Assembly (NCBI GenBank): GCA_017530965.1
Contig: JAFXLS010000143.1
Span: 1-33,079, forward strand
Direction: 5' to 3'
DNA length: 33,079 nt
Source: Fibrobacter sp.
Lineage (GTDB): Bacteria; Fibrobacterota; Fibrobacteria; Fibrobacterales; Fibrobacteraceae
Shown: in pieces, positions 686 through 26,366 of the stretch
Numbering within the stretch: the first letter of the stretch is position 1
How the letters are laid out: the number at the start of each line of letters is the position of its first letter
The notes under the pieces: generated by a model
The model's input: the letters and a program-made list of their open reading frames with translations, nothing else
Told to the model about the DNA's origin: nothing
Database searches by the model: none
Position numbers and translations under genes: made by a program

Positions 686-731
686 CTTGTGTCAAAATTG
701 TGGAAAAGCGTTAAACCGTCGTGTAAATTTG
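686..731 (+). promoter_or_regulatory. Phage late-type promoter A
   Basis: CTTGTGTCAAAA (686-697), 26 bases, then TAAATTTG (724-731), a perfect TAnnTTTG -7 box of the Bacteroidota type. The ATG of the gpW-like gene follows 7 bases later with no Shine-Dalgarno sequence. The same 12-mer and the same spacing recur at 2492 and 14459. No TTG lies at the -33 position expected of the Bacteroidota promoter, so the 12-mer probably takes its place as an activator site (inference). Confidence 0.65.
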
Positions 732-738
732 GATTTGT

Positions 739-978
739 ATGGCTGCATTGCATTCGGTAGAATTTTGTCAACAGATGGTGAGCGAGTACCAGCACGCTCT
801 TTCAAAAGTGCTTTTGGGCCAAAGTTACTCCATAAATGGCCGTGCACTTACCCGAGTGAACCACAACGAAATTTTGGAAGGCCTTAAATACTGGAATGAC
901 GAGCTTGCTAAGGCTAAAGCTGCCGAAGGTGGCGATGTTGGCACAATCCGATGCCGGAGGGTGATTATTCATGGCTAA
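739..978 (+). CDS. gpW-like head-tail connector
   Basis: A 79-aa protein with an N-terminal amphipathic helix, a short beta hairpin (GQSYSINGRALTRVN, residues 27-41) and a second helix (ILEGLKYWNDELAKAKA). This helix-hairpin-helix layout and size match lambda gpW (68 aa), which joins the portal vertex to the tail connector after DNA packaging. The C-terminal GTIRCRRVII resembles the basic end of gpW homologues. The position directly before the portal gene is the classical lambda W-B order, and the two reading frames overlap by 8 bases. No ribosome binding site precedes the ATG. The TAAATTTG box ends 7 bases upstream, which suggests a nearly leaderless message. Sequence identity to known gpW was not measured. 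Confidence 0.7.
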   Translation: MAALHSVEFCQQMVSEYQHALSKVLLGQSYSINGRALTRVNHNEILEGLKYWNDELAKAKAAEGGDVGTIRCRRVIIHG

Positions 979-2491
979 CTATAGCCCGACAATTCCGTGG
1001 AAAGGAGCCGATTTTATTGGCGATGCCCTGAAAACGTTTTTGTATTCTCGTGGTTCTGCCGATGCTGATTTGGCCGAAAGTCGCGATGTTCTTGAATATC
1101 GGTCGCGGGCGCTTTATCAGAATGCTCCTTTTGCCGGTGCTGCGGTCGATACGAAAGTTATCAACGTTGTCGGTTCGGGTCTGTCTTGCCGTCCTTCGCC
1201 GAAGTCGGAATTCCTGAGTGATGTTTCCCAGGAGAAAATCAAGGAATTCGGTAAAAAGGCGCGTGGGCTTTTCGAGCTTTGGGCTGCATCGAAAGACTGT
1301 GACGCCGAGCGCGACAAGAATTTTTACCAAATGCAGGAACTTGTAATGAAGACCAAGGCGATCTGCGGTGATTGCTTTGCGTTGAAATGTTGGCACAATG
1401 TGCCTTCTTCTGCCTTCGGTCTTTGCTACAAACTTCTGGAAGGGAACCGTTGCCGAAATCCGTATGACAAAAGCGATACTAGGGAACTTGCGATGGGCGT
1501 GGAAAACGACAAGGATTCCGTGCATATCGCTTATTGGTTTACCAAGTATCCGGATTACGATGTCGGCGGTTTGGGCAGGTATTGGGAGTCGGTGCGTGTG
1601 CCGACTTATGACGCTTTCGGTTTTCGGAATGTTGTGCATGTATTCAAGTCTGACCGTCCGAACCAGCGCCGTGGCGTTCCCTGGCTTGCTCCGATTATCC
1701 CGATGATCAAGCACCAGGAACGGTTCCAGGATGCAACCTTGATCAATGCCATCGTGCAGTCGATGTACACGGTGTTTATCAAGTCGGCTGAATCTACGGT
1801 TCCGAATAATTTTACCGGGAATGTTCAGGGTAAAGAACGTGTTACGCCTGAAGCGGGGCCTAAAGCTGCTGCTGAACTTGCCGCGGGAAATGTAATCGAG
1901 CTTGGCAAGGGCGAATCCATTGAAGTTGCCGATGCAAAAAGGCCTAATTCAGATTATCGCGATTACATGCGCGAAGTCTGCATGGAAATGGCTTCTCGCC
2001 TGAATATGAGCTATGAACAGGTGCTCAAGCACTTCGAAGGTTCTTACAACTCTGTGCGCGGCGCAATTCTTGAATCCAAGAAAATGTTCGATATCGAACG
2101 CGCAAATCTGGTATCCGATTTTTGCCAGCCGATTTACGAAGCGCTCATTTTCGAAAGCGTTATGCTCGGCGTGCTAGATTGTCCTGGTTTTGAAGATCCG
2201 CTCAAGCGTATGGCTTGGCTGAATTGCGATTGGATTGGTGACGCTCCGGTGATGCTTGATCCGCTCAAGGAAACCACCGCGCTTAAGATGCAGGTGGATG
2301 AACAGTACAAGACTCGTTCCCAGGCGGTTCTCGAAATGAACGGTGGTGAATACTTCAGGAATGTCGAGGAACTTGCGGAAGAAGCTAAATGGCGTGAAGA
2401 AAACGGCGTTCCTGAACCGGGTGCCGTCAACCGTTCTGTTTCCGTCTCTGAGGCTAAACAGATTATCGATGAAACTGAAGACGAAAAATAA
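971..2491 (+). CDS. Portal protein, lambda gpB family
   Basis: A 506-aa protein, close to the 533 aa of lambda gpB. It should form the dodecameric ring at the capsid vertex through which DNA is packaged and ejected. The N-terminal segment RSRALYQNAPFAGAAVDTKV followed by NVVGSGL (residues 42-71) is typical of the family. RRGVPWLAPII near residue 235 matches the central QxRGxPxLAP element, and the C-terminal region has the usual helical ASRLNMSYEQV and SYNSVRGAILE segments (conserved SxNYSSxRAA-like motif). GGAGGG lies 9 bases upstream of the ATG. The gene overlaps the end of the gpW-like gene and is followed after one base by promoter B, so the downstream protease can be transcribed independently. 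No frame damage is visible. Confidence 0.9.
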   Translation: MANYSPTIPWKGADFIGDALKTFLYSRGSADADLAESRDVLEYRSRALYQNAPFAGAAVDTKVINVVGSGLSCRPSPKSEFLSDVSQEKIKEFGKKARGLFELWAASKDCDAERDKNFYQMQELVMKTKAICGDCFALKCWHNVPSSAFGLCYKLLEGNRCRNPYDKSDTRELAMGVENDKDSVHIAYWFTKYPDYDVGGLGRYWESVRVPTYDAFGFRNVVHVFKSDRPNQRRGVPWLAPIIPMIKHQERFQDATLINAIVQSMYTVFIKSAESTVPNNFTGNVQGKERVTPEAGPKAAAELAAGNVIELGKGESIEVADAKRPNSDYRDYMREVCMEMASRLNMSYEQVLKHFEGSYNSVRGAILESKKMFDIERANLVSDFCQPIYEALIFESVMLGVLDCPGFEDPLKRMAWLNCDWIGDAPVMLDPLKETTALKMQVDEQYKTRSQAVLEMNGGEYFRNVEELAEEAKWREENGVPEPGAVNRSVSVSEAKQIIDETEDEK

Positions 2492-2537
2492 CTTGTGTCA
2501 AAACGCGTTTTTTTAATGAACTTGTAGCTTATTTTTG
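2492..2537 (+). promoter_or_regulatory. Phage late-type promoter B
   Basis: CTTGTGTCAAAA (2492-2503), 26 bases, then TATTTTTG (2530-2537, TAnnTTTG) and the protease ATG 5 bases further on. There is no Shine-Dalgarno sequence between box and start codon. The spacing is identical to promoter C at 14459. Confidence 0.7.
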
Positions 2538-2542
2538 AACCG

Positions 2543-3799
2543 ATGAACAAAAAATTGTTGAAAATTCTTTCCGGACAATGGGCTATTGAGCCTAAAGCCA
2601 TGGAGGCCTTGTGTTCTTCTGACTTTGGCGACCCTGCCTGGAAGGAATCTAACGAGCCAAATCACAAGAATAATGTCGATATCCAGAACGGTATTGCCGT
2701 TTTGCACATCGATGGCGCTTTGACGTATCGTTCCAACATCTGGAAAGCTTGGTTTGGCGTTGATACCTACAATTCTATCGAAAATGCGTTCAATGAACTT
2801 GTTGCCGACGAATCGGTGAAGGGTATTGTGCTTTCGATTGATTCTCCGGGTGGTGAGATTAAGGGCGTTTCCGACCTTGCAGACCGCATTTTTGCCGCTC
2901 GTGGAACAAAAGAATGCGGAATTGTCGCTCATTCTGCCGGCGCGATGTGCTCGGCGGCATACTGGATTGCGTCTGCTTGCGAAAAGGTTGTTGCGTCCAG
3001 TGTCGCGCAAGTCGGTTCTATTGGCGTTATGGGTGTTTTGAGTGGCGACGAAGACAAGTCTGTAACTTACCTGCGTTCGAGTCTTAGCCCGAATAAGAAC
3101 TTGGATCCGAATACGCCCGAGGGGCGCTCCGCTGTCGAAAAGAACTTGGACGCCATGGCTAAAGTCTTTGTTGAAGCTCTTGCGAAAAATCGAAATTCCG
3201 ATTTTGATTCTGTACTTGAACGTTATGGACAAGGAAAAGTTTTTGTCGGTCAAGAGGCTCTTGAAGCCGGTATGGTCGATGCGATTGATTCCCTTGATTC
3301 CGTTGTTGAAAAAATGATTAAACATCAAACCATAGGAGGCAACATGCCTACTAATCAAACTCCGGCTCAGACTCCGGCTGCTCAGGCCACTGTAGATGTG
3401 GATGCTGTGCGTCAAGAGGCTGTTGCCGCCGAACGTACCCGAATTGCGGGTATTTCCTCCGCCTTCGAAGGCCTTGGCCTTGACGGCGATTGCAAGAAGT
3501 TTATTGCCGAAGGCAAGACGGTTGACGAAGCAAAGGCGTTTTGTCTTGAGGCTTGCAAGAAGCAACTTGCTGAAGCTAAAACTGCGGCTCCGTCCGCTTC
3601 GGCTACTCCCGCTAATCCCGCTGCAGATCCTGCCGCTACCGCCGGCCTTACTGCAGAACAGAAGGCTCTGATTGCCCAGGGAATGGCCGCTGGTGCCGCT
3701 GCCGCAAACTCTGTCCAGGCTGGAACGGCTGAACCGATGTCTGACGCTGACAAGCGTGCTTTTGACGCGTTCGCCGCCGGTGCAAAAAACTTTCGATAA
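2543..3799 (+). CDS. S49 (SppA-like) capsid maturation protease with C-terminal scaffold region, lambda gpC-like
   Basis: A 418-aa protein. Residues 50-260 form an S49 serine-protease domain: VLHIDGALTYRS (53-64), IDSPGGE (99-105) and AHSAGAMCSAAYWIAS (129-144), where Ser137 is the probable nucleophile. Lys185 in SLSPNKNLDP is the probable general base by analogy with SppA. Residues 268-418 are Ala/Pro-rich with predicted helices, as in the scaffold part of lambda C/Nu3. Phage proteases of this type cleave scaffold and portal during prohead maturation. The ATG sits 5 bases after the TATTTTTG box of promoter B and lacks a Shine-Dalgarno sequence, so the message is probably leaderless. A strong internal start in the same frame lies at 3344 (separate entry). 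The decoration and capsid genes follow. Confidence 0.88.
   Translation: MNKKLLKILSGQWAIEPKAMEALCSSDFGDPAWKESNEPNHKNNVDIQNGIAVLHIDGALTYRSNIWKAWFGVDTYNSIENAFNELVADESVKGIVLSIDSPGGEIKGVSDLADRIFAARGTKECGIVAHSAGAMCSAAYWIASACEKVVASSVAQVGSIGVMGVLSGDEDKSVTYLRSSLSPNKNLDPNTPEGRSAVEKNLDAMAKVFVEALAKNRNSDFDSVLERYGQGKVFVGQEALEAGMVDAIDSLDSVVEKMIKHQTIGGNMPTNQTPAQTPAAQATVDVDAVRQEAVAAERTRIAGISSAFEGLGLDGDCKKFIAEGKTVDEAKAFCLEACKKQLAEAKTAAPSASATPANPAADPAATAGLTAEQKALIAQGMAAGAAAANSVQAGTAEPMSDADKRAFDAFAAGAKNFR
3344..3799 (+). CDS. Nested capsid scaffold protein (Nu3-like, internal start)
   Basis: An ATG at 3344 is in frame with the protease gene (codon 268) and is preceded by a full AGGAGG at 3334-3339. The parent gene itself has no ribosome binding site, so this internal site stands out. 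The product would be 151 aa: a Pro/Ala/Gln-rich start, a helical segment around VDAVRQEAVAAERTRI, and an Ala-rich C-terminal half ending in DAFAAGAKNF. Lambda makes its scaffold Nu3 from the 3' end of gene C in the same way. Separate synthesis here is inferred from the start site and the family precedent. Confidence 0.65.
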   Translation: MPTNQTPAQTPAAQATVDVDAVRQEAVAAERTRIAGISSAFEGLGLDGDCKKFIAEGKTVDEAKAFCLEACKKQLAEAKTAAPSASATPANPAADPAATAGLTAEQKALIAQGMAAGAAAANSVQAGTAEPMSDADKRAFDAFAAGAKNFR

Positions 3800-3811
3800 A
3801 AGGAGGTGAAA

Positions 3812-4498
3812 ATGTTTGAACCGATTGTTTTTGAAAACAAGAAAATCTTTGCAGGTGACACTCAGCCTCGCAATATCGGCTCCGGTATCATTTACGGTGC
3901 CGACCTTCAGGCCGGTTCTGTGCTTGCCTCCCGTGGCGTGGCTACCTCTGCGACGAAGGCAAAGAAGTCCGTAACCTTTACCGGAACTCCGGTTGCTACC
4001 AAGACTGTCAAGCTGTCTGTCAATGGCAACGAAGTAACCTACACGATTGCTTCTACGACCTTGGCTGATGAAGTTGCCGGTCTCAAGGCGGCAATCAATG
4101 CTGACAATGTTCTGAAGAACATTGTGGCTGCCACCAATTCCGCAGGCAAGCTTCTTATCGAATGGAAGGAAGCTGGTTCTGCCGGTAATGACATGGTGAT
4201 TGTTGTTACGGTTGGCGACGGTGCTGGTGTCGAAGCTGGTGCGGTTGCTGTCGAAACCATCGGCCAGTCCGTCGGTGATGAACTCTTCGAAATCGTCGAT
4301 TCCGACAGTGGCACTGCTGCGCTTCAGGATCCGGTCGGCGTCTTGCTCGAAGATACCAAGGCGGGTAAGTCTGGCGCTATCGCCTTTACGGGCGAAGTAG
4401 ACGTTGCCGAACTCAAATTCGCCGAAGGCGATTCCATCAACAATTTCTTGAAGGCTCTGCGCAAGATTGGAATTTTCCCGCGCACTGTCAACGAATAA
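3812..4498 (+). CDS. Head decoration protein, lambda gpD-like, with inserted domain
   Basis: A 228-aa protein, about twice the 110 aa of lambda gpD. Residues 1-45 (GDTQPRNIGSGIIYGADLQAGSVL) and 155-225 (VGVLLEDTKAGKSGAIAFTG, then ALRKIGIF near the end) are the two halves of the trimeric decoration fold that stabilises expanded capsids. Residues about 45-152 are an insertion resembling the domain at residues 115-200 of this phage's own tail sheath (VTFTG, VNGNEV, LKAAINA, GNDMVIVV). The ATG at 3812 is preceded by AGGAGG at 3801-3806. An in-frame GTG at 3806 overlaps that Shine-Dalgarno sequence and was rejected as start. Placement between scaffold and major capsid gene is the lambda C-D-E order. 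Confidence 0.8.
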   Translation: MFEPIVFENKKIFAGDTQPRNIGSGIIYGADLQAGSVLASRGVATSATKAKKSVTFTGTPVATKTVKLSVNGNEVTYTIASTTLADEVAGLKAAINADNVLKNIVAATNSAGKLLIEWKEAGSAGNDMVIVVTVGDGAGVEAGAVAVETIGQSVGDELFEIVDSDSGTAALQDPVGVLLEDTKAGKSGAIAFTGEVDVAELKFAEGDSINNFLKALRKIGIFPRTVNE

Positions 4499-4510
4499 AA
4501 GGAGGATGAC

Positions 4511-5539
4511 ATGCCTGATTATATGAATGTCGCGACTCTTACCAAGCAGGTAAACAATAACTTGCCTCCCAAGCGTTTTCTTTCCGGATTTTTCCAGGTG
4601 GAAACGCTTAAGACCGTGAATGCCGAACTCGACACTGTCGAAGGAACTCACGTTCTTGCTCCGTTCAAACGCGAAGGGGCCAAGCGCACCATTACGAAGC
4701 GCTCTGGCTACACCAAGCGACCGTTCCATTGCTATGAAATTGCTTTGGAACGTCCGACCGACGCGTTTGACGTGCTCAAGGCTCAGCCTGGTGAACCGGC
4801 GGTCCTTGTTGATCCGATGGACGCAAACCAGCGTCAGTCCTACATCTTGGGCAATGATACTGCTGACCTGAGCAACCGCATCAACCGCACGATCGAAATG
4901 ATTTGCTCCAAGGCTCTTTTCGAAGGCGGCTACGAAATTCTTGACGAAGAAGGGAAGAAAATCGACAGTATTTCTTTCGATGTCAAGGCAACCCACAAGA
5001 TTACCAAGAGCGGTAATTCGATTTGGACTGGCGACGGTGCTGACATCATTGGCGACCTGTCTGATCTCGATACGGTTGTTAGCGAAGATTCTGGCTTGGC
5101 TGTTGCCGACAAGATTTTCGGCGCTGCTGCTTGGAAGGCTGCTCGTGCAAACGAAAAGTTCATGAAAGACTTTGACCGTATCCATGTGACGGGCAATTCC
5201 ATGGACCTGGGTGGCGGTGTCAACAGCAACGGTGCGAAACTTGTTGGTTACCACAATGGTAGCCGCATTTGGGTGTACAACGATACGTATACCGTCAACA
5301 AGGCCAAGACGAGCTTTGTCCCGAAGGACAAGGTGCTTGCTATCGGCGAAGGTCTTGCTGCCAAGCTGTACTTCGGTTGCGTCGGTAATGTCAAGGACGG
5401 CTGGTTCCGTGCTGAACGTTTTGCCAAGACGATTTACGACGAAGACGAAGAAATCCAGAAGCTCATCATGAAGAGTCGTCCGCTTGCAGTCTTGCAGCAG
5501 CCGGATGGTATCGCCTGGGCCAAGGTCGTCAACCTCTAG
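4511..5539 (+). CDS. Major capsid protein, lambda gpE family
   Basis: A 342-aa protein, one residue longer than lambda gpE (341 aa). It carries family features: the N-terminal NNLPPKRFLSGFFQ, the TKRSGYTKRPFHCYEIALERPT region around residue 62 (where gpE has its aromatic, positively charged loop), a central strand TGNSMDLGGG, and the C-terminal MKSRPLAVLQQPDGIAWAKV. This protein forms the icosahedral shell in the HK97 fold and binds the decoration protein. AAAGGAGG lies 5 bases before the ATG. The spacing of 12 bases to the decoration gene suggests co-translation from one transcript. Codon use is GC-rich at third positions, as expected for a highly expressed gene in this genome. Confidence 0.9.
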   Translation: MPDYMNVATLTKQVNNNLPPKRFLSGFFQVETLKTVNAELDTVEGTHVLAPFKREGAKRTITKRSGYTKRPFHCYEIALERPTDAFDVLKAQPGEPAVLVDPMDANQRQSYILGNDTADLSNRINRTIEMICSKALFEGGYEILDEEGKKIDSISFDVKATHKITKSGNSIWTGDGADIIGDLSDLDTVVSEDSGLAVADKIFGAAAWKAARANEKFMKDFDRIHVTGNSMDLGGGVNSNGAKLVGYHNGSRIWVYNDTYTVNKAKTSFVPKDKVLAIGEGLAAKLYFGCVGNVKDGWFRAERFAKTIYDEDEEIQKLIMKSRPLAVLQQPDGIAWAKVVNL

Positions 5540-5549
5540 GAACTAAACT

Positions 5550-5924
5550 GTGAGTGCATTTTCCGAAAGTCTCAATGAAGATTTAAACGGCGTTTTTTTC
5601 GACGTTGAAGCTTTCGGTAATGCCGTGGTTTTAGTCCGTGGGTCTGACCGAATTCAGATGAATGGACTTTACGACGCGCAGGCGCTTGATAGTGGCGAGT
5701 CTCTTGGTCCAGATGTGACTGCTATTTCTCACCGCCCGAGGCTGGTTGTCCGCAAGGTCGATTTGCCTGGGCAGGTGGCCCGCAAGGGCGATGTCTTTGA
5801 AATTGAGATGAAATCCGGATTCCAGAAGTCGCTCAAGTTGAAAGCGGTTGATTTTGCCGACGAATCTGACGGAACTGTAACCTACCAGCTTGAACTGGTA
5901 AAGAAGGTGCCTGTCAATGGCTAA
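5550..5924 (+). CDS. Head-tail joining protein, lambda gpFII-like
   Basis: A 124-aa protein starting at GTG, with AGGA 8 bases upstream. Residues 60-105 (ISHRPRLVVRKVDLPGQVARKGDVFEI) match the beta-rich core of gpFII-like proteins, where a strand pair is followed by the VRxxDLxxxxRGDxxxI pattern. FII (117 aa) binds below gpW and forms the surface to which the tail attaches. The location just after the capsid gene and before a U-like gene agrees with lambda, and the stop overlaps the next start by 8 bases, indicating coupling. A distant relative of the same connector fold in another phage type cannot be excluded. Confidence 0.7.
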   Translation: MSAFSESLNEDLNGVFFDVEAFGNAVVLVRGSDRIQMNGLYDAQALDSGESLGPDVTAISHRPRLVVRKVDLPGQVARKGDVFEIEMKSGFQKSLKLKAVDFADESDGTVTYQLELVKKVPVNG

Positions 5925-6498
5925 TAGAACTCTTGATTGCATTAAGACTTTGCGAGCAAGTGTTGTGCAGACGCTTAAGACTGCGGACATTCCTGGAATC
6001 GGCCAAAATGTTTTCTCCGCCAGGCAGGAACGTGCCTGGCCGGAGGAATCTGGCTTTATTTGTGTCTATACGCCCGAAACGAATTTTGATGATAAACGGA
6101 CCTCTCCGCGCTTTTACTATGTGACCGGTGATTTGGTCATTGATGTGTATGGCCGTGGAGCTGTAGATGATTCGAATGATCAGTCCGAAATATACGATGT
6201 AAACGATTTTCTTGATGATGTAGCTAAGGCCGTTGCTGAAGCTCTTCAGCCTATCGAATGCCGCGTTGGCCCCTATTCGGGGCTTGTAAGAAGGCTTGTG
6301 CTCAAGTCGATTGCAAATAACTTGAGTTCTGCAGGCGAAGCGGACCGTGGCAATCAGCGAATGGTCTTTGGCATTGAGTATGCCGTGACAATTACGGTTG
6401 GTGGTCCTGCAGACGATTTCTTGAAGGCTGAAAACACGCTTTCGATGGGTAGTGGCGCTGGCAACAAGATTGAATTTGATACGAATGTTAGACCTTAA
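5917..6498 (+). CDS. Tail terminator protein, lambda gpU-like
   Basis: A 193-aa protein. The N-terminal helix (TLDCIKTLRASVVQTLKTA) is followed by alternating strands (GFICVYTPETNF, FYYVTGDLVIDVYGR) and a helix DVNDFLDDVAKAVAEAL, the layout of the gpU group that caps the tail tube and joins it to the head connector. The C-terminal half includes RMVFGIEYAVTITVG, a strand typical of the family, followed by a less ordered tail. GAAGGTG lies upstream of the ATG, and the gene overlaps the preceding one. It is the last head-tail interface gene before the sheath gene. The assignment rests on order and secondary-structure pattern rather than strong motifs. Confidence 0.65.
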   Translation: MANRTLDCIKTLRASVVQTLKTADIPGIGQNVFSARQERAWPEESGFICVYTPETNFDDKRTSPRFYYVTGDLVIDVYGRGAVDDSNDQSEIYDVNDFLDDVAKAVAEALQPIECRVGPYSGLVRRLVLKSIANNLSSAGEADRGNQRMVFGIEYAVTITVGGPADDFLKAENTLSMGSGAGNKIEFDTNVRP

Positions 6499-6513
6499 AA
6501 ACGGAGGATGCCG

Positions 6514-8070
6514 ATGAGCATTTCTTTTGGTGAAATTCCGGCGGACAACCTTGTCCCCATGTTTATGACCGAGTTCGATAACTCGAACGCGGCGAAGGGC
6601 GGTGCAATGCCCTGGAAGAACTTGCTCATTGGGCAGGCCGTCCAGGCTTACAACCCTGAAACACGCACCGAGTCTTTCCGTCCGAAATCGGACAACACTG
6701 GAACGCTGAAGCTGATTACGAGCGACGAACAGGCTGATGCCCTTTACGGTGCAGGCTCGCAGATTGCCCGCATGATCCGTGCGTTCCGCAAGAATACCCG
6801 CAACAGCGAACTTTGGGCTTTGGCTGTTGCCGATGGCTCGACCGCTGCCGAAGGCGAAATCGCGGTGTCTTTCGCGGGTTCCGCTACGGTCGCTCCGAAG
6901 TCCGGAGCAATTCGCTTGATGATCGGTGGCCAGAGCGTTGCGGCTGACGTGGTCGCTGGCAAGACTGCAGCCGAAGTTGCGACTGCCATTGCCGCCGCCA
7001 TCAACGAAAACCAGCAGCTGCCTGTTGTTGCTGAAGCTTCGAGCGCTACCGTGACCCTCACGGCAAAGAACGGCGGTATTTGCGGCCAGGGTATCGATAT
7101 CCGCTACAACCATTACCAGGGTCAAGAACTCCCGCAGGGCGTCCAGCTGGCCATTACCGCCATGACTGGCGGTGGCTCCGACACGTCTTACGTGACGGCC
7201 AATGTCGCCAACATCATTCGCGGCACCTGGTTCAACGCCATCGTTGCCGGTTCCGACGATGCGACGAACGTTGCCGAAATCAAGCGCATCCTGGATGACC
7301 GCTGGACGGCGACCGTACAGCAGACCGGCGTGTTGTTCTTCAGCCTGAACGGCTGTAGCGTGACTTCCGGTGGTGACACGACTGACTACGGCACTGCAAG
7401 CCTTGATGCTCTCGTGGAACGTGGCGGCGACCTGAATTCCCAGGTGATTTGCTTGCCGTCCCTTCCGGAAACGCCGACTCCGGGCTTCGAAGTTGCTGCC
7501 GCCGTGCTCGGCTGCGTTGCCCCGAAGGCCCTGAACGACCCCGCTCAGCCGCTTTCGAACTGGGCTGTCGCTGGCATCGTCGCTCCGCGTGAAACCGACC
7601 GCGAAGACCTCGAAGGCAATAACCTTCTCCTGAAGGCCGGTTGCGCCCTGTTGACCTGCGGCAACGATGGCACTGTGTATCTCAAGCGCATGGTGACCAC
7701 CTACAAGACAAATCCTGCAGGTGCGAAGGATACCAGCTACCAGCAGCTCGAAAAGGTGTTCACGCTCTCGTTCCTGCGCTGGGATTGGAATAATTACCTC
7801 GCTGGCCGCTACCCGCACGCAAAGCTTGCGGATGACGGTACGGACTTTGGCCCGGGCCAGGTAATCATGACTCCGAAGCTTGGCGAAGCCGAACTTTTGG
7901 GTCGCTACGAATACTGGATTTCGAAGGGCCTTGTCCAGGATTACGCCACCTTCAAGGCGAACCTTGTCGTGGCTCGCGATCCGGACGACGATACCGCGCT
8001 CCAGTTCCTCATCCCCGCCGACTTGATTGACCAGTTCTTCATCGGCAAGTCCAAGATTCAGTTCAAGTAA
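6514..8070 (+). CDS. Contractile tail sheath protein, Mu gpL-like
   Basis: A 518-aa protein. The N-terminal ISFGEIPADNLVPMFMTEFDNS and KNLLIGQA (residues 36-43), then LITSDEQADALYGAGSQIARM, are standard for Mu-type sheath proteins, which polymerise around the tube and contract to drive it into the host envelope. The middle carries an insertion domain (115-200). The C-terminal half has ALNDPAQPLSNWAVAGIVAP, LLKAGCALLTCGNDGTVYLKR and TTYKTNPAG, the conserved handshake and core region. Two ATGs compete: the one at 6508 directly abuts GGAGG and is too close, while the one at 6514 has 6 bases of spacing and was chosen. Strong GC3 codon bias suggests high expression. Confidence 0.92.
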   Translation: MSISFGEIPADNLVPMFMTEFDNSNAAKGGAMPWKNLLIGQAVQAYNPETRTESFRPKSDNTGTLKLITSDEQADALYGAGSQIARMIRAFRKNTRNSELWALAVADGSTAAEGEIAVSFAGSATVAPKSGAIRLMIGGQSVAADVVAGKTAAEVATAIAAAINENQQLPVVAEASSATVTLTAKNGGICGQGIDIRYNHYQGQELPQGVQLAITAMTGGGSDTSYVTANVANIIRGTWFNAIVAGSDDATNVAEIKRILDDRWTATVQQTGVLFFSLNGCSVTSGGDTTDYGTASLDALVERGGDLNSQVICLPSLPETPTPGFEVAAAVLGCVAPKALNDPAQPLSNWAVAGIVAPRETDREDLEGNNLLLKAGCALLTCGNDGTVYLKRMVTTYKTNPAGAKDTSYQQLEKVFTLSFLRWDWNNYLAGRYPHAKLADDGTDFGPGQVIMTPKLGEAELLGRYEYWISKGLVQDYATFKANLVVARDPDDDTALQFLIPADLIDQFFIGKSKIQFK

Positions 8071-8082
8071 AGGAGGCTCAAG

Positions 8083-8454
8083 ATGGCTTTTGAAGACGTG
8101 GGTGGAACCCACAAGCTCTATGTGAACGGCGTCCAGTTCAACCTCAAGGGCGACCCGACTATCGATATCGGCGGCGAAAAGCGCACGCCCATTATGGGTG
8201 TCGATGGCCGTATGCATGGCTACAAGGTCGAAACCATGCCCGCGAAGGTGTCTGGCACCATTACCGACACCTCCGACCTGGACCAGATTGAACTCCGCCA
8301 GCTGAAAAACGCCACCGTGAAGCTCGAAAAGCCGAACGGCAAGGTGTTCGTGATTACCGGAGCCGCCTTCAGTGGCGACCCGAGCGAATCCGGAGCCGAA
8401 GGCGAAATCAGCTTCGAATTCTCTGGCCCTCCGGGCAAGGAACTCATGCCGTAG
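8083..8454 (+). CDS. Tail tube protein, Mu gpM-like
   Basis: A 123-aa protein, the usual size for the Mu-type tube subunit that stacks in hexamers inside the sheath. LYVNGVQFNLKGDPTIDIGG and the central GYKVETMPAKVSGTITD show the strand pattern of the family, and the end EGEISFEFSGPPGKEL is characteristic (family pattern SFxFxGPP). AGGAGG precedes the ATG by 6 bases. The spacing from the sheath gene is 12 bases and codon bias is the same strong GC3, consistent with balanced high production of sheath and tube. The next recognisable gene begins only at 8739. The intervening space holds a folded RNA element and a small AT-rich reading frame. Confidence 0.9.
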   Translation: MAFEDVGGTHKLYVNGVQFNLKGDPTIDIGGEKRTPIMGVDGRMHGYKVETMPAKVSGTITDTSDLDQIELRQLKNATVKLEKPNGKVFVITGAAFSGDPSESGAEGEISFEFSGPPGKELMP

Positions 8455-8479
8455 TTTGATGCCTTTTCTACGGCTTATA

Positions 8480-8557
8480 TCCGCGTTACTTGGGGACGGA
8501 TTGCGGCGAACTTGATTGTGAACCGCTTTCCGGTGGGGATCGAAGCCCCAGCGCGGC
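8480..8557 (+). other. Candidate structured RNA element between tube and chaperone genes
   Basis: Direct inspection shows a closing helix CCGCGT (8481-8486) with GCGCGG (8551-8556), an inner stem GCGG (8503-8506) with CCGC (8523-8526), and a 5-bp hairpin TGGGG (8534-8538) with CCCCA (8546-8550) around the 7-base loop ATCGAAG. The last hairpin abuts the closing helix, as the T-arm abuts the acceptor stem in tRNA. The D-arm and a normal anticodon loop are not visible, so it is not called a tRNA. The span is also open in one reading frame from 8455. It may protect, process or attenuate the operon mRNA after the abundant tube gene. Confidence 0.35.
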
Positions 8558-8568
8558 TTAAATCTGCT

Positions 8569-8738
8569 TAAAAGGAGTAAAAATGACAGCGGATGAAAAA
8601 GATGCTTTAAAAGATTTTGTTGGTGAAACTCTTCAAAGATGCCATAAAGAAAATCTTATAAAAAAGGAATTTGATTGTGAGCGCATAGAAGATAAAATGC
8701 CGTCAACAATGAATTTAATCTATAAAAGGAGTAAAAAT
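8569..8738 (+). repeat. Duplicated 16-bp ribosome-binding block flanking a 52-codon AT-rich frame
   Basis: TAAAAGGAGTAAAAAT occurs at 8569-8584 and again at 8723-8738. Each copy provides a Shine-Dalgarno sequence: the first for an ATG at 8583, the second for the chaperone ATG at 8739. The interval reads 52 codons in frame with the chaperone (beginning MTADEKDALKDFVGE), AT-rich and unlike its neighbours. The product could be a 135-aa N-terminally extended chaperone, or the frame could be a small inserted gene that happens to read through. I do not recognise the 52-residue sequence. Confidence 0.5.
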
Positions 8739-8990
8739 ATGGATTACAAACTGATTGTTCCCATCAAAAAGGTGGATGGTAGCGAAATTGACCATGTTAC
8801 GGTCAAGGAATCTTTTACCGGTCGTGACATCAAGGCCATCGGAAACTGTAAAGGCGAAGGCGATGCTATGATCGCGCTCGTTGTGGCTGCGTCCGACCTG
8901 ACGGAAAACAACGTTCTGGGCATGGATGCCCGCGACGTGAAGGCTATTGGCGAACTTGCCCGCCCTTTCTTAGTCGGTGGGGAGGCCTAG
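8739..8990 (+). CDS. Tail assembly chaperone, zero-frame product (Mu gp41-like)
   Basis: An 83-aa protein. KLIVPIKKVDGSEIDHVTVKE opens with the beta strand typical of the P2 gpE / Mu gp41 type chaperones (family pattern L.pp...dG.....v.lR.p), then come GRDIKAIGNCKGEGDAMIALV and a DARDVKAIGELARPFL helix. Such chaperones coat the tape measure during tail assembly. AAAAGGAG lies 9 bases before the ATG at 8739. An upstream in-frame ATG at 8583 would add 52 unrelated residues, and the family alignment favours 8739. The frame ends at TAG 8988-8990, while the -1 frame continues to 9130 with a second conserved domain, so this is one of two products from the gene. Confidence 0.8.
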   Translation: MDYKLIVPIKKVDGSEIDHVTVKESFTGRDIKAIGNCKGEGDAMIALVVAASDLTENNVLGMDARDVKAIGELARPFLVGGEA

Positions 8991-9130
8991 GCTTTGACGA
9001 CGGCTTTGCCGCCCTGGCAGGCGTTTTTCACTGGTCTTATGACCAGATTATGGACTTGGATGCTGAAGCGTTCGAATTCAGCCTGAAAGCTGCCGAAAAG
9101 TATGCCAAGTGGATGAATCCAAAAAAGTGA
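8739..9130 (+). CDS. Tail assembly chaperone, -1 frameshift extended product
   Basis: Reading 77 codons in frame from 8739, slipping back one base at 8963-8969 and continuing to TGA 9128-9130 gives 130 aa. The added part contains GVFHWSYDQIMDLDAEAFEF, which follows the P2 E' pattern (FxWPxxEhxxMxhxEhxxW, h hydrophobic), and ends KYAKWMNPKK. Dual products from a -1 shift upstream of the tape-measure gene are established for lambda G/GT, P2 E/E+E' and Mu. No start codon with a ribosome binding site exists for the second frame, and that frame is open well upstream of the zero-frame stop. Both facts support frameshifting over a separate gene. The long product normally bridges tube subunits and the tape measure. 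Confidence 0.75.
8963..8969 (+). promoter_or_regulatory. Slippery heptamer C_CCT_TTC for -1 frameshifting
   Basis: In the chaperone frame the codons are CGC CCT TTC TTA, giving C_CCT_TTC, a formal X_XXY_YYZ site. After slipping, the tRNAs re-pair with CCC and TTT. It lies 18 bases before the zero-frame stop. A possible downstream stimulator is GTCG (8973-8976) pairing with CGAC (8996-8999). This is not one of the common AAAAAAG/GGGAAAG types, so efficiency is unknown. Confidence 0.6.
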
Positions 9131-9151
9131 CCTTTTGCGGGTCGCTTTTTG
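9126..9151 (+). terminator. Rho-independent terminator after the tail chaperone
   Basis: AGTGACC (9126-9132) pairs with GGTCGCT (9140-9146), with one T-G wobble, around a 7-base loop, followed by a T run to 9150. It overlaps the stop codon of the frameshift product. It separates the head/sheath/tube unit from the following membrane-protein gene. A second small inverted repeat, ATTCCA-TGT-TGGAAT, lies at 9157-9171. Confidence 0.75.
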
Positions 9152-9208
9152 TGTTTATTCCATGTTGGAATAGATGCAAACAATAAATTTTACTTATTGT
9201 GTTAAATT

Positions 9209-9243
9209 TTGACAAAAGAATAATATATATTATAGATAGAGGG
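9209..9243 (+). promoter_or_regulatory. Housekeeping-type promoter and RBS of the moron-like gene
   Basis: TTGACA (9209-9214), 16 bases, TATAGA (9231-9236), then AGAGGG (9238-9243) as Shine-Dalgarno sequence 7 bases before the ATG at 9251. This differs from the phage late promoters: it has a full -35 hexamer and no CTTGTGTCAAAA. It could therefore be read by the host sigma factor in the lysogen. Confidence 0.55.
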
Positions 9244-9250
9244 TAAGATT

Positions 9251-9718
9251 ATGAAAATAGAGTTGAACATAGGATCTGGACTGGATTTAAAAGTCGGGCT
9301 TCCGTCTCTCCGCAAGATTTATGTTCTTTGCGCTGTAATCCCCTTTATTCTTTTTTGGACTGGAATTACATCTCCATTATGGACTGATAATTTTATAGTC
9401 TACGTGTTTGCTTTGGCTCCGTATTATCTTTATATTATTCTTTTGAATAATGAATGGCTTGATGGCCGTTTTTTATGCGATACTAAAATCGGAAAATACG
9501 CTTCTAGGATTTGGGCGTTTAATATTGGCTTGTCGGCGCTTTCTAGTCTTTTTCTGTCTTTTCTTTGGACTCGTTCTGATTTGTTTTTGTTCGGAGTTTC
9601 CTTGATGGCGTTGGTGAATGTTGTTCCGGCGTTCGTGTCTTCGCTTGCGGCTCTGTTTTTGCATAAAACAAGATATGAACGATTTCCTTTGTGGGCACCA
9701 CCTGCTGGCGATGGGTAA
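9251..9718 (+). CDS. Putative four-helix membrane protein, moron-like
   Basis: A 155-aa protein with about four hydrophobic segments (residues 24-41, 49-65, 92-108 and 114-137), a short charged N-terminus and a soluble Pro-rich end. No family was recognised. It is AT-rich with codon use unlike the sheath and tube genes, sits between the tail chaperone and the tape measure (adjacent in Mu-type phages), and has its own upstream terminator, promoter and ribosome binding site. A late-type promoter restarts phage transcription immediately after it. This is the classical arrangement of a moron, an accessory gene expressed from the prophage. Membrane-protein morons often alter the host surface or exclude other phages; that role is only inferred here. 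A structural tail role is less likely because the gene is absent from this position in Mu-like modules. Confidence 0.65.
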   Translation: MKIELNIGSGLDLKVGLPSLRKIYVLCAVIPFILFWTGITSPLWTDNFIVYVFALAPYYLYIILLNNEWLDGRFLCDTKIGKYASRIWAFNIGLSALSSLFLSFLWTRSDLFLFGVSLMALVNVVPAFVSSLAALFLHKTRYERFPLWAPPAGDG

Positions 9719-9723
9719 AAAAG

Positions 9724-9766
9724 TTGTGACTAATTGAGTTTTTTTAAGGTTGTGTGATTATTTTTA
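9724..9766 (+). promoter_or_regulatory. Candidate late-type promoter D (degenerate)
   Basis: TTGTGACTAA (9724-9733) resembles TTGTGTCAAA of promoters A-C, and TATTTTTA (9759-9766) is identical to the box of promoter C. Spacing between them is 2 bases shorter than in A-C. The ATG of the tape measure follows 4 bases after the box without a Shine-Dalgarno sequence. It would restart transcription after the moron-like gene. Confidence 0.45.
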
Positions 9767-9770
9767 TCGC

Positions 9771-11411
9771 ATGGCCTTTTTAAATGTGTCGTTAAATTTG
9801 TTGTCCGGAAATTCGTTCGTAAAAGCTGCGGGCGATGTAAAAATTTTTAATTCCAATCTTAAAAATTCTGTCGGCGTTTTAGATGATTTGAAGAAAAAAA
9901 TTGGCTTTTCGCAAAAAATTACAGGTTTTGCATCTGCATCTACGCTAATCACGAATTTTTCGTCTGGTGTCAAGTCGGCTGTTATGAATGTCGAGCGGTT
10001 GGTTGACAAGATTGGTGAATATGCAAATCAAGGTGACCACATTGCAAAAACTTCTAGGCTTGTAGGCCTTTCTGTTAAAGATTATCAGGCTTTTGACCAG
10101 GCGGCCCGCCATGCGGGAATGTCTACTGAAGAAGTGGATAATACGTTGAAACGCTTTAACGTAAATCTTGGTAAGGCAAAAGCTGGGGATGGTAAGACGT
10201 TTAAGGTTTTTGACGCTATTCTTGGTGGTAAAAAGATTTCTGATTTCAAGGATTCTACGTCGTTGTTGGCTGCGGTTGCTGATGGTTATGCTAAACTAGG
10301 CACTGCTGAGCAAAAGGCAATGGTTTCCCAGGAATTGTTCGGAAAATCGGGCCTTAAAATGTCTGAACTGCTGAAAAATGGCGGTGAAGATCTTAAGAAG
10401 CAGCTTGAATCTGCTGTTCCAGGGTTTTCTGACCAAGGCGCAAAAGATGCTGAAGCGTTTAACGATGCTTTGCAGGATATGCGTGGAACAATCAAATCGA
10501 TAAAAATATCGGTCATGGAAGGTCTTTTTCCGACATTTACAAATTTATTCGATACGGTTCGGGAATTTGTGAAAGATAATGGTCCTAAAATTAAAGAACA
10601 GATTGGATTTGTTGTTGGTGAAGTTGTTGGTTTTGTAAAGGGTGTGCTGCCGTACATTCCGAAGGTGCTGGGTGTTGTTGTTGGCCTAGTTGATTTAATA
10701 GGGCCTGGGTCTGTGGCGGCTTTAGCTGGTTTTAGCGCTATTTTAGGTGCAGTTGTTCCGTTAGTTCCTGCTTTGATGGGTGCTGTTGGCGTTATTACCG
10801 GGCCGATGATTGCTGGAGTGTTGGGGGCTGTCATTGGTTTTATTGCTTGGGGTAAAACTATTTATAGCATTGTTGACAACTTAGATTTGCTAAAGTCCTT
10901 TATTGTCGACGATGTGTGGGGTGCAGTCAAGGATTTTGGAAATCAGTTTGTAGAAGTTGCAAAATGGATGTGGAGTGGTTTTAAATCAATCTTTATTGAT
11001 CCATGGTGGAATTTCTTTACTGCTCTTCCTAGTGCTATTTCAGATTTATGGGAGGGTTTTAAAACTGGAATTTCTGAAATAGGTAATTTGCTTTACGATA
11101 CTTTTATTGGCAGTGTCAAATCGGCTGTTTCTGGAATAAAATCTATTGTAAAAGGTATTCCTGTTTTAGGGAATCTTTTCGGCGATGATGACCAACCTTC
11201 GATTCGAGATATTTCTTCGGCTTCTGCAGCTTCGGGTTCTTCGTCTTCGTCGCTTGGTGCTTCTGTTGCTCAGGCGGTAAGCGAATCCCACACGACAACT
11301 ACCAGCCGCTTTGCGGTCGATTTCAAGAATATGCCGCGCGGTGTCCAGGTGACGGCTCCGGATCATGGCGACTTTGACTATTCTCGTGGTTATGTTTTGG
11401 CGGGTATGTAA
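9771..11411 (+). CDS. Tail tape measure protein
   Basis: A 546-aa protein from the ATG at 9771. The upstream GTG at 9750 was rejected because it lies inside the promoter D region, whose box ends 4 bases before the ATG. The first 150 residues are helical (SASTLITNFSSGVKSAVMNV, RLVGLSVKDYQAFDQAARHAG, the latter typical of Mu-type tape measures). Residues 275-380 are long hydrophobic stretches rich in Gly and Val that probably insert into the host membrane on ejection. The C-terminal RFAVDFKNMPRGVQV...DYSRGY element is conserved in Mu-like homologues. At the established 1.5 angstrom per residue the tail would be about 80 nm. The body is AT-rich, but the last 45 codons have host-like composition, suggesting replacement of most of the gene. 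It overlaps the next gene (TAATG). Confidence 0.88.
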   Translation: MAFLNVSLNLLSGNSFVKAAGDVKIFNSNLKNSVGVLDDLKKKIGFSQKITGFASASTLITNFSSGVKSAVMNVERLVDKIGEYANQGDHIAKTSRLVGLSVKDYQAFDQAARHAGMSTEEVDNTLKRFNVNLGKAKAGDGKTFKVFDAILGGKKISDFKDSTSLLAAVADGYAKLGTAEQKAMVSQELFGKSGLKMSELLKNGGEDLKKQLESAVPGFSDQGAKDAEAFNDALQDMRGTIKSIKISVMEGLFPTFTNLFDTVREFVKDNGPKIKEQIGFVVGEVVGFVKGVLPYIPKVLGVVVGLVDLIGPGSVAALAGFSAILGAVVPLVPALMGAVGVITGPMIAGVLGAVIGFIAWGKTIYSIVDNLDLLKSFIVDDVWGAVKDFGNQFVEVAKWMWSGFKSIFIDPWWNFFTALPSAISDLWEGFKTGISEIGNLLYDTFIGSVKSAVSGIKSIVKGIPVLGNLFGDDDQPSIRDISSASAASGSSSSSLGASVAQAVSESHTTTTSRFAVDFKNMPRGVQVTAPDHGDFDYSRGYVLAGM

Positions 11412-12643: not shown

Positions 12644-13710
12644 TCGAGGTTTTCGCCAACGGCCGTAAGTTTTCGGAGTGGACGGATGCCCGCGTGGTCC
12701 GTTCTCTTGACCATATTGCGGCGGCATTTTCGCTTACCTTGGTTGCCAGGAATTCGGATGGCGATCGTGTGCGTCTTTTCCCTGGAGATTCTGTCGAGGT
12801 GGCCGTCAACGGGACCAAGGTGATTTCCGGGTTCGTGGACCGTCTTTCGACATCGTTTTCCGCCGGTTCGCATTCGGTAAGTGTTTCCGGGAGCGAATGT
12901 TCTGCGGATATCGCCGATTGCTGTATTGATAACCCGCTGGAGTGGGAAAACAAGAAAATGGACGAAATCATCCGCATTGTCTGCGCTAATTTCGGTCTTT
13001 CTTTCTCAAATCGCATGAGCGTAGATGTTGGCGGTCCGTTCCAGAAGTTTTCCGTCGAGCCTGGAGCCAAGGCGCTTGATACGATCACGAAGCTTTGCAG
13101 GGAACGTGGAATCCTGTGCTGTTCCGACGGCATGGGAAAAGTGTATCTGTTAAAGCCTGATTCGTGTCCGCGTGGACCGGCCTTGAAGCAAGGCGAAAAC
13201 CTGATGGCGGCAAGCGTGGATTTTTCGCTTGTGGACCGTTTTTCGACCTACACGGTATATGGAACCGGCAAGGCGAAAAAGAAGGTGGTAGCGACTTCTT
13301 CGGATTCGGACGTTACGCGAAATCGCCCGCTAATTGTGGTGGATTCGAACGCTGTCGAAAAGGACAAGGTGCAGGCCCGCGCAGATTGGGAATGTCGTGT
13401 TCGTAGGGCTAAATCGATGGGGTTTCGCGCAACGGTACACGGCTGGGAACATTCGTCAGGTCTTTGGACTCCTGGTGTGATTTGTTCGTTCGAAGCTCCG
13501 GAGCTTTTTGTCGAGACTCCGCTTGATTTGCTGGTGTCTTCTGTAGAATATTCCTGGGGATCTTCGGGTGAAATGACGAATTTGACGCTGGTTCCGCCAG
13601 AAGTTTTTGAGCCACAGCCGGAATCCAAGAAGGTCAAGGCGGTAAAATCGGCTAAAAGTCCTAAAGCAGATCCGTGGAAATCTATCAAGAAGGCGGTGCA
13701 AGGGAAATGA
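12640..13710 (+). CDS. Baseplate hub protein, Mu gpP-like (GPD family)
   Basis: A 356-aa protein, close to Mu gpP in length. It starts at an ATGA overlap with the gpN gene. The N-terminal VFANGRKFSEWTDARVVRSLDHIAAAF gives the first barrel domain of the T4 gp27 / P2 gpD fold. SVEVAVNGTKVISGFVDRL and SVSVSGSECSADIADCCID (residues 47-90) carry the conserved GxxDx and GRS-like positions, and GPFQKFSVEPGAKALDTITKLC is a typical junction. The C-terminal region has VHGWEHSSGLWTPGVICSFE, matching the WxPG element of the family. The trimer forms the hub between tube and spike. The last 30 residues are Lys/Pro-rich and probably disordered. Confidence 0.88.
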   Translation: MIEVFANGRKFSEWTDARVVRSLDHIAAAFSLTLVARNSDGDRVRLFPGDSVEVAVNGTKVISGFVDRLSTSFSAGSHSVSVSGSECSADIADCCIDNPLEWENKKMDEIIRIVCANFGLSFSNRMSVDVGGPFQKFSVEPGAKALDTITKLCRERGILCCSDGMGKVYLLKPDSCPRGPALKQGENLMAASVDFSLVDRFSTYTVYGTGKAKKKVVATSSDSDVTRNRPLIVVDSNAVEKDKVQARADWECRVRRAKSMGFRATVHGWEHSSGLWTPGVICSFEAPELFVETPLDLLVSSVEYSWGSSGEMTNLTLVPPEVFEPQPESKKVKAVKSAKSPKADPWKSIKKAVQGK

Positions 13711-14201
13711 ATTTCGAGTCTTTGATTGAACCACTGATGGCGAAACTTCGGCTGATGGTGGGCCGTTGCGTGATATCGGCTAGCCGTTACAAAAACGGTG
13801 AGCTGTTGGCCGATATTGAGCTTGTTGCAGGCGAACGACGCCGAAATGTTGAATTTTTGCAGCAGTTCGGTTTTTCGAGTCGCCCCAAAGGTGATGTGGA
13901 AGGCGTTGCTCTGTTTATCGGCGGTTCCCGCGATAACGGCGTTGTAATTGCAACGCGTGGCGAATGCCCTGACCTGAAAGAAGGCGAAGTGCAAGTGCAT
14001 TCACCGTTTGGATCAAGCATTACCTTGAAAAATGACGGTTCTATTGAACTGGCTACGAATTCAAATAAGTTTCGATTTGTTGGCGATATCGAAGCTACTG
14101 GCGAAGTAAAGGCGATGTGCGATTCAACATTTGTAACATTGACGAATCATATTCACCCGACTGGCGTGGGCCCGTCTTCGAAACCGACTCCTGGACAATG
14201 A
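13707..14201 (+). CDS. Baseplate spike protein, Mu gp45-like
   Basis: A 164-aa protein starting at the ATGA overlap with the gpP gene. An upstream GTG at 13674 was rejected because it would add residues encoded within gpP. Residues 10-100 form an OB-fold-like N-terminal domain (GRCVISASRY, LADIELVAGERRRNVEFLQQFGFSSRP, GVALFIGGSRDNGVVIATRG), diagnostic of Mu gp45. Residues 105-150 are a short beta-helix stretch (VHSPFGSSITLKNDGSIELA). The end contains THVL-like TLTNHIHPTGVGPSSKP, where HxH can bind a metal ion at the needle tip, as established for P2 gpV and related spikes. This trimeric spike pierces the host outer membrane. Confidence 0.88.
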   Translation: MNFESLIEPLMAKLRLMVGRCVISASRYKNGELLADIELVAGERRRNVEFLQQFGFSSRPKGDVEGVALFIGGSRDNGVVIATRGECPDLKEGEVQVHSPFGSSITLKNDGSIELATNSNKFRFVGDIEATGEVKAMCDSTFVTLTNHIHPTGVGPSSKPTPGQ

Positions 14202-14202
14202 T

Positions 14203-14448
14203 ATGGCGTTAAACAAGACTACTCTAAAAAATGCTTTGAAGGCTGTTTTTGAAAGCCGCCCATCAAGTGACGAAGATGCTGCAGATGCTTTGGCAACTGC
14301 GATTTATGATTTTGTCAAAAGCGCCGAGGTGACGATTACTGCGCTCCCGAACGAAGTGTCTGTGGTTGGGTCTCCGACTGCGCAGGCCAATGCCGTACCG
14401 TTAACTTTGAAGGGTGGTGACGCCACCCATACCGGCGGGCTTTCGTAG
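14203..14448 (+). CDS. Small phage baseplate-region protein
   Basis: An 81-aa protein: helical N-terminal half (NKTTLKNALKAVFES, then ADALATAIYDFVKSAEV) and a beta/loop C-terminal half rich in Val, Pro and Thr, ending in GGLS. Small proteins with this layout (AxAIxxFVKSAEV.., then V.G..., ending in GxxS) are frequent between the spike and gp46 genes in Mu-like and other contractile phages, but I know of no established function. It begins 2 bases after the spike stop codon, with only a weak TGGA upstream, so coupling is likely. Its stop is followed by late-type promoter C, making it the last gene of the tape-measure transcription unit. Confidence 0.7.
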   Translation: MALNKTTLKNALKAVFESRPSSDEDAADALATAIYDFVKSAEVTITALPNEVSVVGSPTAQANAVPLTLKGGDATHTGGLS

Positions 14449-14458
14449 CAAAAAAAAT

Positions 14459-14504
14459 CTTGTGTCAAAATCGGCCTTTACTATGTAAGGGCTGTTTATT
14501 TTTA
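14459..14504 (+). promoter_or_regulatory. Phage late-type promoter C
   Basis: CTTGTGTCAAAA (14459-14470), 26 bases, TATTTTTA (14497-14504), then 5 bases to ATG 14510, identical in spacing to promoter B. There is no Shine-Dalgarno sequence. It opens the baseplate-fibre transcription unit. Confidence 0.7.
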
Positions 14505-14509: not shown

Positions 14510-14927
14510 ATGAGCGACCTTGCTTTGTATCGCAGAAGTTCCGGTGATTTCCGACAGTCTTGAAAATGCGGTCGTGATATCGATTGGAACTTACGCCCGC
14601 GAACGAAAACTTGGTAAAGTTGCGAATCTTAAGCCGAATGTCGGTGGATGGTGGGGTGATGCCCTTGACGAGAAGGGAAATCTTGGCGGCTACCTGTATG
14701 AAGCTTTTCCTGGAAAACTGACCGAGGTAACGGCAAGGTCTGTCGAAAATCTTGTGAAAGAATCTTTGGCTTGGATGGTTGAGGACGGTGTTGCTAAGTC
14801 TGTCGGCTGTAAAGCTGAAATCGCCGATGAAGAAACGATGAATGTCACTATCACTATTCAGCGACCTGATGGTAGTGACGATGCTTATGCTTACGAAATA
14901 AAGTGGATGGCTACTGATGGAATTTAA
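14510..14927 (+). CDS. Baseplate protein, Mu gp46-like, with frame break near the start
   Basis: The conserved body (SLENAVVISIGTYARERKLG, NVGGWWGDALDEKGNLGG, then a helical wedge region) is a Mu gp46 / GP46-family baseplate component. The family usually begins with an MSDLAL-like segment. Exactly that (MSDLALYRR) is encoded from ATG 14510 at the position fixed by promoter C, but it is in the other frame and stops at 14563. The body frame is open from TTG 14520 to 14927. A +1 shift somewhere in 14520-14563 would join them into about 138 residues. Options are a real 1-base insertion, an assembly error, ribosomal frameshifting (TCT TGA at 14558-14563 is a conceivable site), or a TTG start. The gene overlaps the baseplate J gene by 11 bases. 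Family assignment is firm; the start is not. Confidence 0.75.
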
Positions 14928-20159: not shown

Positions 20160-20179
20160 GATGCATAATGAGGTATAAT

Positions 20180-20446
20180 ATGACAGCATTTGAAATTCAA
20201 AATGAAATTCAAAATAAACTAGAAGAAGATAGGACGATAGTTAGAGTCGTAACCTATGACTCTACTACACGACTATTTATCTTCGGCATAGCAGGTAAGT
20301 CCCTAGAAGATTTTCCTACATCTAGTGACACCGACTCCGAATTGGCTGCTTACTTGAATCAATATTTAAGTAATTGGAAATTTGAGGAAGTGAATAATGA
20401 AGTATGGAGTGGTATTGGGTTGGTGGGTACACTTAAGAATGCTTAA
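20180..20446 (+). CDS. Small protein after tail fibre, possible fibre chaperone
   Basis: An 88-aa acidic protein: MTAFEIQNEIQNKLEEDRTI, then a short beta segment VVTYDSTTRLFIFGIAG, a Ser/Asp-rich loop, and AYLNQYLSNWKFEEV. GAGGT at 20170-20174 supports the ATG at 20180 over the one at 20168, which overlaps the ribosome binding site. It is AT-rich, like the end of the fibre gene, suggesting the two were acquired together. Position and size fit a fibre-assembly chaperone. No motif proves it, and an unrelated small accessory protein is possible. Confidence 0.5.
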   Translation: MTAFEIQNEIQNKLEEDRTIVRVVTYDSTTRLFIFGIAGKSLEDFPTSSDTDSELAAYLNQYLSNWKFEEVNNEVWSGIGLVGTLKNA

Positions 20447-25637: not shown

Positions 25638-25695
25638 AATGTGTTTTTTTCGTCATTTTTTGAAGATTAAGCGTTCTTTTCAACAAATATTAGTC

Positions 25696-25703: not shown

Positions 25704-25708
25704 CTAGT

Positions 25709-26362: not shown

Positions 26363-26366
26363 TCCG

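Follow-up and report, generated by a model that had tools for sequence, protein, structure and literature searches.

Putative coordinated late promoters with a phage-specific upstream box in a contractile-tailed Fibrobacter prophage and its relatives

The stretch of DNA analysed here, called the window, comprises 33,079 nucleotides of Fibrobacter sp. (contig JAFXLS010000143.1 of assembly GCA_017530965.1) and carries late genes of a prophage, whose units are preceded by a recurrent upstream box and a -7 element. The gene content, comprising adaptor, portal, protease, head proteins, sheath, tube, tape measure, hubs, and baseplate wedge, is that of a phage with a contractile tail. The early half of the phage lies on two other contigs of the same genome, C70 and C13, whose ends overlap the window exactly, by 141 and 139 bases, the terminal 141 bases of C70 being the first 141 bases of the window. 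A 99% relative of the phage (G084) encodes a lambda gpA-type terminase, XRE/CI-type repressors, SSB, a ParB-like protein, SpoVG, and a tyrosine integrase (Phage_integrase). Based on this gene content, the phage of the window is temperate, integrates site-specifically, and does not belong to the Mu phages.

The exact 12-mer CTTGTGTCAAAA is present at positions 686, 2492, and 14459, always on the plus strand, always in intergenic regions, and always followed after 26 bases by a TAnnTTT element (TAAATTTG at 724, TATTTTTG at 2530, and TATTTTTA at 14497), as the initial annotation had claimed and a pattern search confirmed. The first putative promoter (686-731) consists of the box at 686-697 and the -7 element at 724-731. 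Transcription is predicted to start at 736, leaving a leader of 3 nt to the ATG at 739, and the unit behind it (739-2491) contains the head-tail adaptor (739-978) and the portal (971-2491). The second (2492-2537) has the box at 2492-2503, the -7 element at 2530-2537, a predicted start at 2542, and a leader of 1 nt to the ATG at 2543. Its unit, which provisionally reaches from 2543 to 9718, contains the protease (2543-3799), a decoration-like protein (3806-4498), the major head protein (4511-5539), head closure, sheath (6508-8070), tube (8083-8454), and tail proteins. The third (14459-14504) has the box at 14459-14470, the -7 element at 14497-14504, a predicted start at 14509, and again a leader of 1 nt to the ATG at 14510, and precedes a unit (14510-17270) of baseplate wedge genes, the second and third of which lie at 14917-16068 and 16068-17270. 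The sites had been proposed to open the portal, protease/capsid, and baseplate units, which is correct for the latter two; the site at 686, however, opens the head-tail adaptor plus portal. The frame of the first wedge gene is disrupted. Between 14510 and 14560 the in-frame ATG is followed by an out-of-frame deletion compared to the intact frame of the relatives (homologous frame 14520-14927), and the window copy of this gene may be defective or misassembled.

In the whole 3.06-Mb host assembly, CTTGTGTCAAAA-N24..28-TAnnTTT has three matches, all on this contig, while the reversed control has none. The motif is therefore not as frequent elsewhere in the host genome as here; equal frequency had been named as speaking against the proposal. 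The 12-mer is too strict as a unit, and the element looks like an 8-9-mer placed at a constant 38 bp from the -7 box. The relaxed pattern CTTGTGYC-N29..31-TAnnTTT has four matches in the genome, three of them in the window contig, and two weaker sites belong to the same phage. One (9723-9766, plus strand) has the box GTTGTGAC, 36 instead of 38 bp before TATTTTTA at 9759-9766, and a predicted start at the A of the ATG at 9771, the first codon of the tape measure gene (9771-11411). In relatives the spacing at this gene is 38 bp in the closest copy (L083), and G024 has GTTGTTCC together with its own core. The other is located before terS at position 9946 of contig C70, where the box CTTGTGCC stands 38 bp before TAAAATAT.

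Bacteroidetes sigma-A promoters consist of a -33 element TTTG and a -7 element TAnnTTTG (PMC7366714, PMC9723704). TTTG-N18..20-TAnnTTTG is found 51 times in the host genome versus 20 times in the reversed control, and TAnnTTTG can therefore reasonably be regarded as a -7 element here, as in Bacteroidetes. The -7 element is conserved across 38 non-redundant sites of the window phage and its relatives, whereas a -33 TTG is not conserved about 19-23 bp before the TA in these sites. Thus, the suggestion that an upstream element is found where the -33 element is missing holds, with box and -7 element at fixed spacing. If the -7 box spans -12 to -5, a geometry borrowed from PMC9723704, the leaders at 686, 2492, 14459, and 9723 are predicted to be 3, 1, 1, and 0 nt long. 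Leaders of at most 4 nt, mostly 0 or 1, are predicted for all 19 non-redundant adaptor sites, while the predicted terS leaders fall into two classes of 0-1 nt and 8-15 nt. Because the -7 elements are so close to the start codons, most late mRNAs are probably leaderless (0-4 nt). For comparison, leaders shorter than 10 nt are rare in B. thetaiotaomicron, where they make up about 3.7% of the 5' untranslated regions (PMC7366714).

Relatives were drawn from genomes belonging to the same family of bacteria and, by terminase alignment, from IMG/VR; a portal-based scan of genome contigs revealed only one relative. Extending the motif search to the whole prophage and to these relatives, as had been advised, disclosed not only the further sites in the prophage but a family of boxes in about 40 related Fibrobacter-type phages, located at terS, the head-tail adaptor, sometimes the protease, the tape measure, and the baseplate wedge. 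The box mostly starts exactly 38 bp before the TA of TAnnTTTG. In non-redundant regions this spacing is present in 23 of 32 adaptor, 17 of 34 terS, and 5 of 9 wedge regions, compared to means of 1.8, 2.0, and 0.55 in shuffled regions, respectively. In contrast to the spacing, the letters of the box vary among phages and agree inside one phage (CTTGTGTC, GATGTTCC, GTGTTACC, GATGTGACG, GATGGTC, and GATGAGACT). CTTGTGYC is shared by the window, G084, G037, L209, and L202, and GATGTTCC by G024, G089, G081, and L218. GTGTTACC is found in a prophage on contig C45 of the window's own genome (G000) and in G053, L223, and L237, GATGTGACG in G052, G108, L220, and L221, GATGGTC in G054 and L203, GATGAGACT in G088 and L210, and GATGAAACG in L212 and L213. 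The logo of the 38 sites shows as conserved columns an A/T-rich lead, TG, C, an A/T tract, and the -7 element. The dyad TTG-TGT-CAA, which had been taken for the core of the motif, is not conserved in the relatives and is therefore probably not the principle of recognition. In IMG/VR, the start codon is at the predicted place in 9 of the 19 matches to the 12-mer with a 26-base gap versus 3 of the 62 with other gaps; most 12-mer matches there are background.

The agreement of boxes was compared within and between phages, with figures that are inflated by the relatedness of the phages: adaptor and terS boxes agree at 7.4 versus 5.45 of 9 positions (n=16, p=5e-5), adaptor and wedge boxes at 8.0 versus 5.4 (n=7, p=0.005), and adaptor and protease boxes at 8.5 versus 5.4 (n=6, p=0.003). 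Despite this relatedness, the constant spacing combined with changing letters points in the same direction. The C45 prophage (L131-L133) is related to the window phage, resides in the same genome, and has its own box GTGTTACC at terS, the adaptor, the tape-measure region, and the wedge. The box is thus tied to the phage rather than to the host, and whatever reads it is probably made by the phage. In G084 (L118-L120; oriented positions 15565, 17371, and 29583) the first two boxes contain the same T-to-C change, CTTGTGCCAAAA, which the third does not have. This may be a parallel change or gene conversion between the sites.

Known late activators were looked for without success. In nine host genomes (G000 and eight others) we found no match to Mor/C (PF08765) above the cut-off, with one sub-threshold match on an unrelated G037 contig, and no match to Ogr_Delta (PF04606). 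Among the early genes compared, the box is tracked best by a short early-operon domain with the consensus WTxxExxxLRxGxxPxGRSxRACRxFCxRxGIPFPGK, which we name WT-RAC. Its Mantel correlation with box distance is 0.67, followed by f81, the neighbour of WT-RAC (0.50), f107 (0.29), terS (0.24), SSB (0.18), and XRE (0.105), and its partial correlation is 0.66 given SSB and 0.43 given f81. Each of the 18 box phages whose early region is part of the data set contains WT-RAC, and the domain was not found in the searched records of a distant group with palindromic boxes, several of which are fragments. It belongs to no family in Pfam or PHROGs and has no relative by sequence search of the PDB. The AlphaFold2 model has three helices (mean predicted local distance difference test, pLDDT, 83). 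G052, G054, and G088 carry a free-standing domain (58-86 residues), and the other phages a fusion with a ParB-like protein; in the window phage it forms the N-terminus of the ParB-like protein in a leftward early operon. The ParB-like body is swapped between phages while the WT-RAC N-terminus stays. Near-identical WT-RAC domains are found on three different ParB bodies in three CTTGTG-box phages, with the caveat that small genes adjoining WT-RAC are also similar between the window and G084. In L217 the domain has clearly diverged, yet this phage has the stretch RSIRACR-FCNRHGI and the box TTGTGTCAAAA in common with the window. WT-RAC-like repeats are also present in HNH endonucleases. Post hoc, and in the dereplicated set, Asp at position 5 of the domain (numbering from the conserved Trp) accompanies C or T as first box base (5/5) and Glu accompanies GATG (6/6). 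Other candidates were discarded. An excisionase-like helix-turn-helix protein near the repressor is found in five relatives only, the correlation of the XRE repressors is not significant, and the terS genes of G037 and the C45 prophage are nearly the same although the boxes differ. We consider WT-RAC the best activator candidate, which is a good lead and not a result.

A small DNA-binding gene had been expected at the end of the early region. This applies to G088, in which f81 and WT-RAC form a two-gene cassette directly before terS, but not to the window phage with its ParB-fused candidate in the leftward operon. An inverted GATGAGACT is located just upstream of the G088 cassette (L138, oriented 19955-20437). 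The idea that the early operon regulates itself via the box is suggestive in G088 but overall not convincing.

We propose that the sites are the jointly controlled late promoters of a temperate Fibrobacter prophage with a contractile tail. An activator encoded in the early operon would bind the phage-specific 8-9-bp box, in constant orientation at about -50 to -42, replace the missing -33 contact, and bring the host RNA polymerase to the TAnnTTTG element. Transcription would begin 0-4 nt before the start codon, and most late messages would consequently be leaderless. The activator, or its DNA-reading part, would most likely be the three-helix WT-RAC domain. All sites of one phage would then have to follow one activator, which might explain why the matching of boxes within a phage persists. 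The proposal takes from the sequences the set of sites, the spacing, the matching within phages, the association of the box with phage and not host, and the presence of WT-RAC in the box phages; activation, binding of the box, the identity of the activator, and the transcription starts are what we infer. That the sites are promoters is well supported, and the comparisons suggest that the control box and a phage-made activator have diverged together. To the reading as a whole, namely coordinated late promoters with a phage-specific box, a phage activator that is most likely WT-RAC, and mostly leaderless messages, we assign a probability of roughly 60%.

Several observations weigh against it. 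The agreement of terS and wedge boxes is not significant (n=5). Some phages are mosaic: the wedge site of G024 (L122-L123, 40770) is the window-type CTTGTGTCAAAA while the other G024 boxes are GATGTTCC, and the tape measure site of G037 (L124, 15564) is GTTGTTCC while the others are CTTGTGTC. L217, L224, L226, and L228, which have TG boxes, contain unlike boxes at two sites. WT-RAC was chosen as candidate post hoc and has no match in a fold search of the PDB. After dereplication its correlation with the box is modest (r 0.27, p 0.03, n 11). G108 has the same box as G052, yet its genome contains no WT-RAC homologs other than very different ones, which are perhaps not of that phage.

It could be that the promoters are real and activator-driven but are read by f81, another early protein, or a gene outside the compared sequences. 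This is the alternative that we take most seriously, although we consider it unlikely. It would account for the discordant G108, most early proteins are without known function, and f81 not only adjoins WT-RAC in most phages but also tracks the box, as the correlations show. However, f81 was not found in the C45 prophage and L237, which both have matched boxes, its partial correlation given WT-RAC is only 0.17, and XRE, terS, SSB, and f107 track the box poorly.

The boxes might also be operators at which a phage repressor silences the late genes in the lysogen. A distant group of phages (G106 (L121/L152), L231-L233, L235, and L238) indeed carries palindromes at the same gene starts, e.g. AGTGACAAATTTTGTCACT (TGACAAA..TTTGTCA), some of which adjoin or follow the -7 element as an operator would. 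This group possibly has a different control system. The TG-box element, in contrast, is non-palindromic and located 38 bp upstream of the -7 element in place of the -33 element, and the XRE repressors do not track it, which makes silencing through these boxes quite improbable.

The element might instead act in RNA, with box and hairpin together serving termination or antitermination where two units meet, similar to Q or N systems. Promoter 3 contains the hairpin GCCTTTACTATGTAAGGGC in its spacer (14474-14492, plus strand; -12.6 kcal/mol, z -4.6) with a T-rich run after it, and stable spacer hairpins are present at 9 of 45 sites, some with T-runs behind them. But the remaining 36 keep the -7 element and the 38-bp spacing without a stable hairpin, and it is hard to see how a hairpin right before the start codon would fit the translation of a read-through message. 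We regard an RNA element as very improbable. The hairpin was thus rejected as a conserved element; where present, the hairpins are probably terminators of the preceding unit that overlap the next promoter. Ordinary host-type promoters read by a host factor, with the upstream matches due to shared ancestry, can practically be dismissed: the -7 element is of host type and the phages are related, but two prophages of one genome have different boxes, the host chromosome contains hardly any copy of the window box, and the letters change while the spacing stays constant.

The late promoters proposed here thus resemble several known systems in part. A phage-specific upstream element at fixed spacing to the core and in front of several late operons characterises the class of activator-dependent late promoters, and all of these features are present. 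In the Mu late promoters (Plys, PI, PP, and Pmom) the activator C binds just upstream of or over -35, and the core elements are poor (PMC4461284). The layout is shared, with several late promoters under a single phage activator and an upstream element near -35, both inferred from sequence in our case. In contrast to Mu, no Mor/C homolog passes the cut-off in the nine host genomes, the box of this group is non-palindromic, the -7 element is of Bacteroidetes type with predicted leaders of 0-4 nt, and the phage has a tyrosine integrase instead of transposing. Thus, the initial view that these promoters work like those of Mu seems justified for the architecture, including the position of the box, but not for membership, given also that the dyad is not conserved in the relatives. 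In P2, 186, and P4, small phage-coded zinc-finger activators (Ogr/Delta) switch several late virion operons. The candidate would be comparable, but no Ogr_Delta match was found in the nine genomes and the box diverges strongly between relatives. The Q/qut and N/nut systems of lambdoid phages likewise show a regulator and a site that diversify jointly from one phage to the next, as we propose here; they act on elongation at one or a few places, while the box precedes four or five operons at constant spacing to a -7 element. Compared to Bacteroidetes sigma-A promoters the -7 element is the same, but the -33 element is absent with a phage box in its place, and the predicted leaders are near 0 nt.

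In the open-access literature we found no paper on late promoters or late gene control of Fibrobacter phages. Among the relatives, a single promoter design is available in dozens of natural versions whose box varies along with a small candidate activator, so that a protein-DNA recognition code might be readable from sequence. If true, this would account for the way in which two related prophages sharing a cell do not switch on the virion genes of one another. It also predicts that leaderless virion messages form a class in this group, although such messages are rare in its relatives. That WT-RAC is a new late-activator family with a readable DNA code, giving each phage lineage private promoters, insulating co-resident prophages, and producing leaderless virion mRNAs, is a tentative interpretation to which we give somewhat less than an even chance.

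The right part of the window (about 24200-33079) resembles host chromosome, with STAS, M23 peptidase-like, NUDIX, and NusA genes. The prophage therefore ends near 24 kb. The early region of G084 (L120) contains genes for a SpoVG homolog and for a ParB-like protein that stands alone (oriented 490-807 and 2951-4597).

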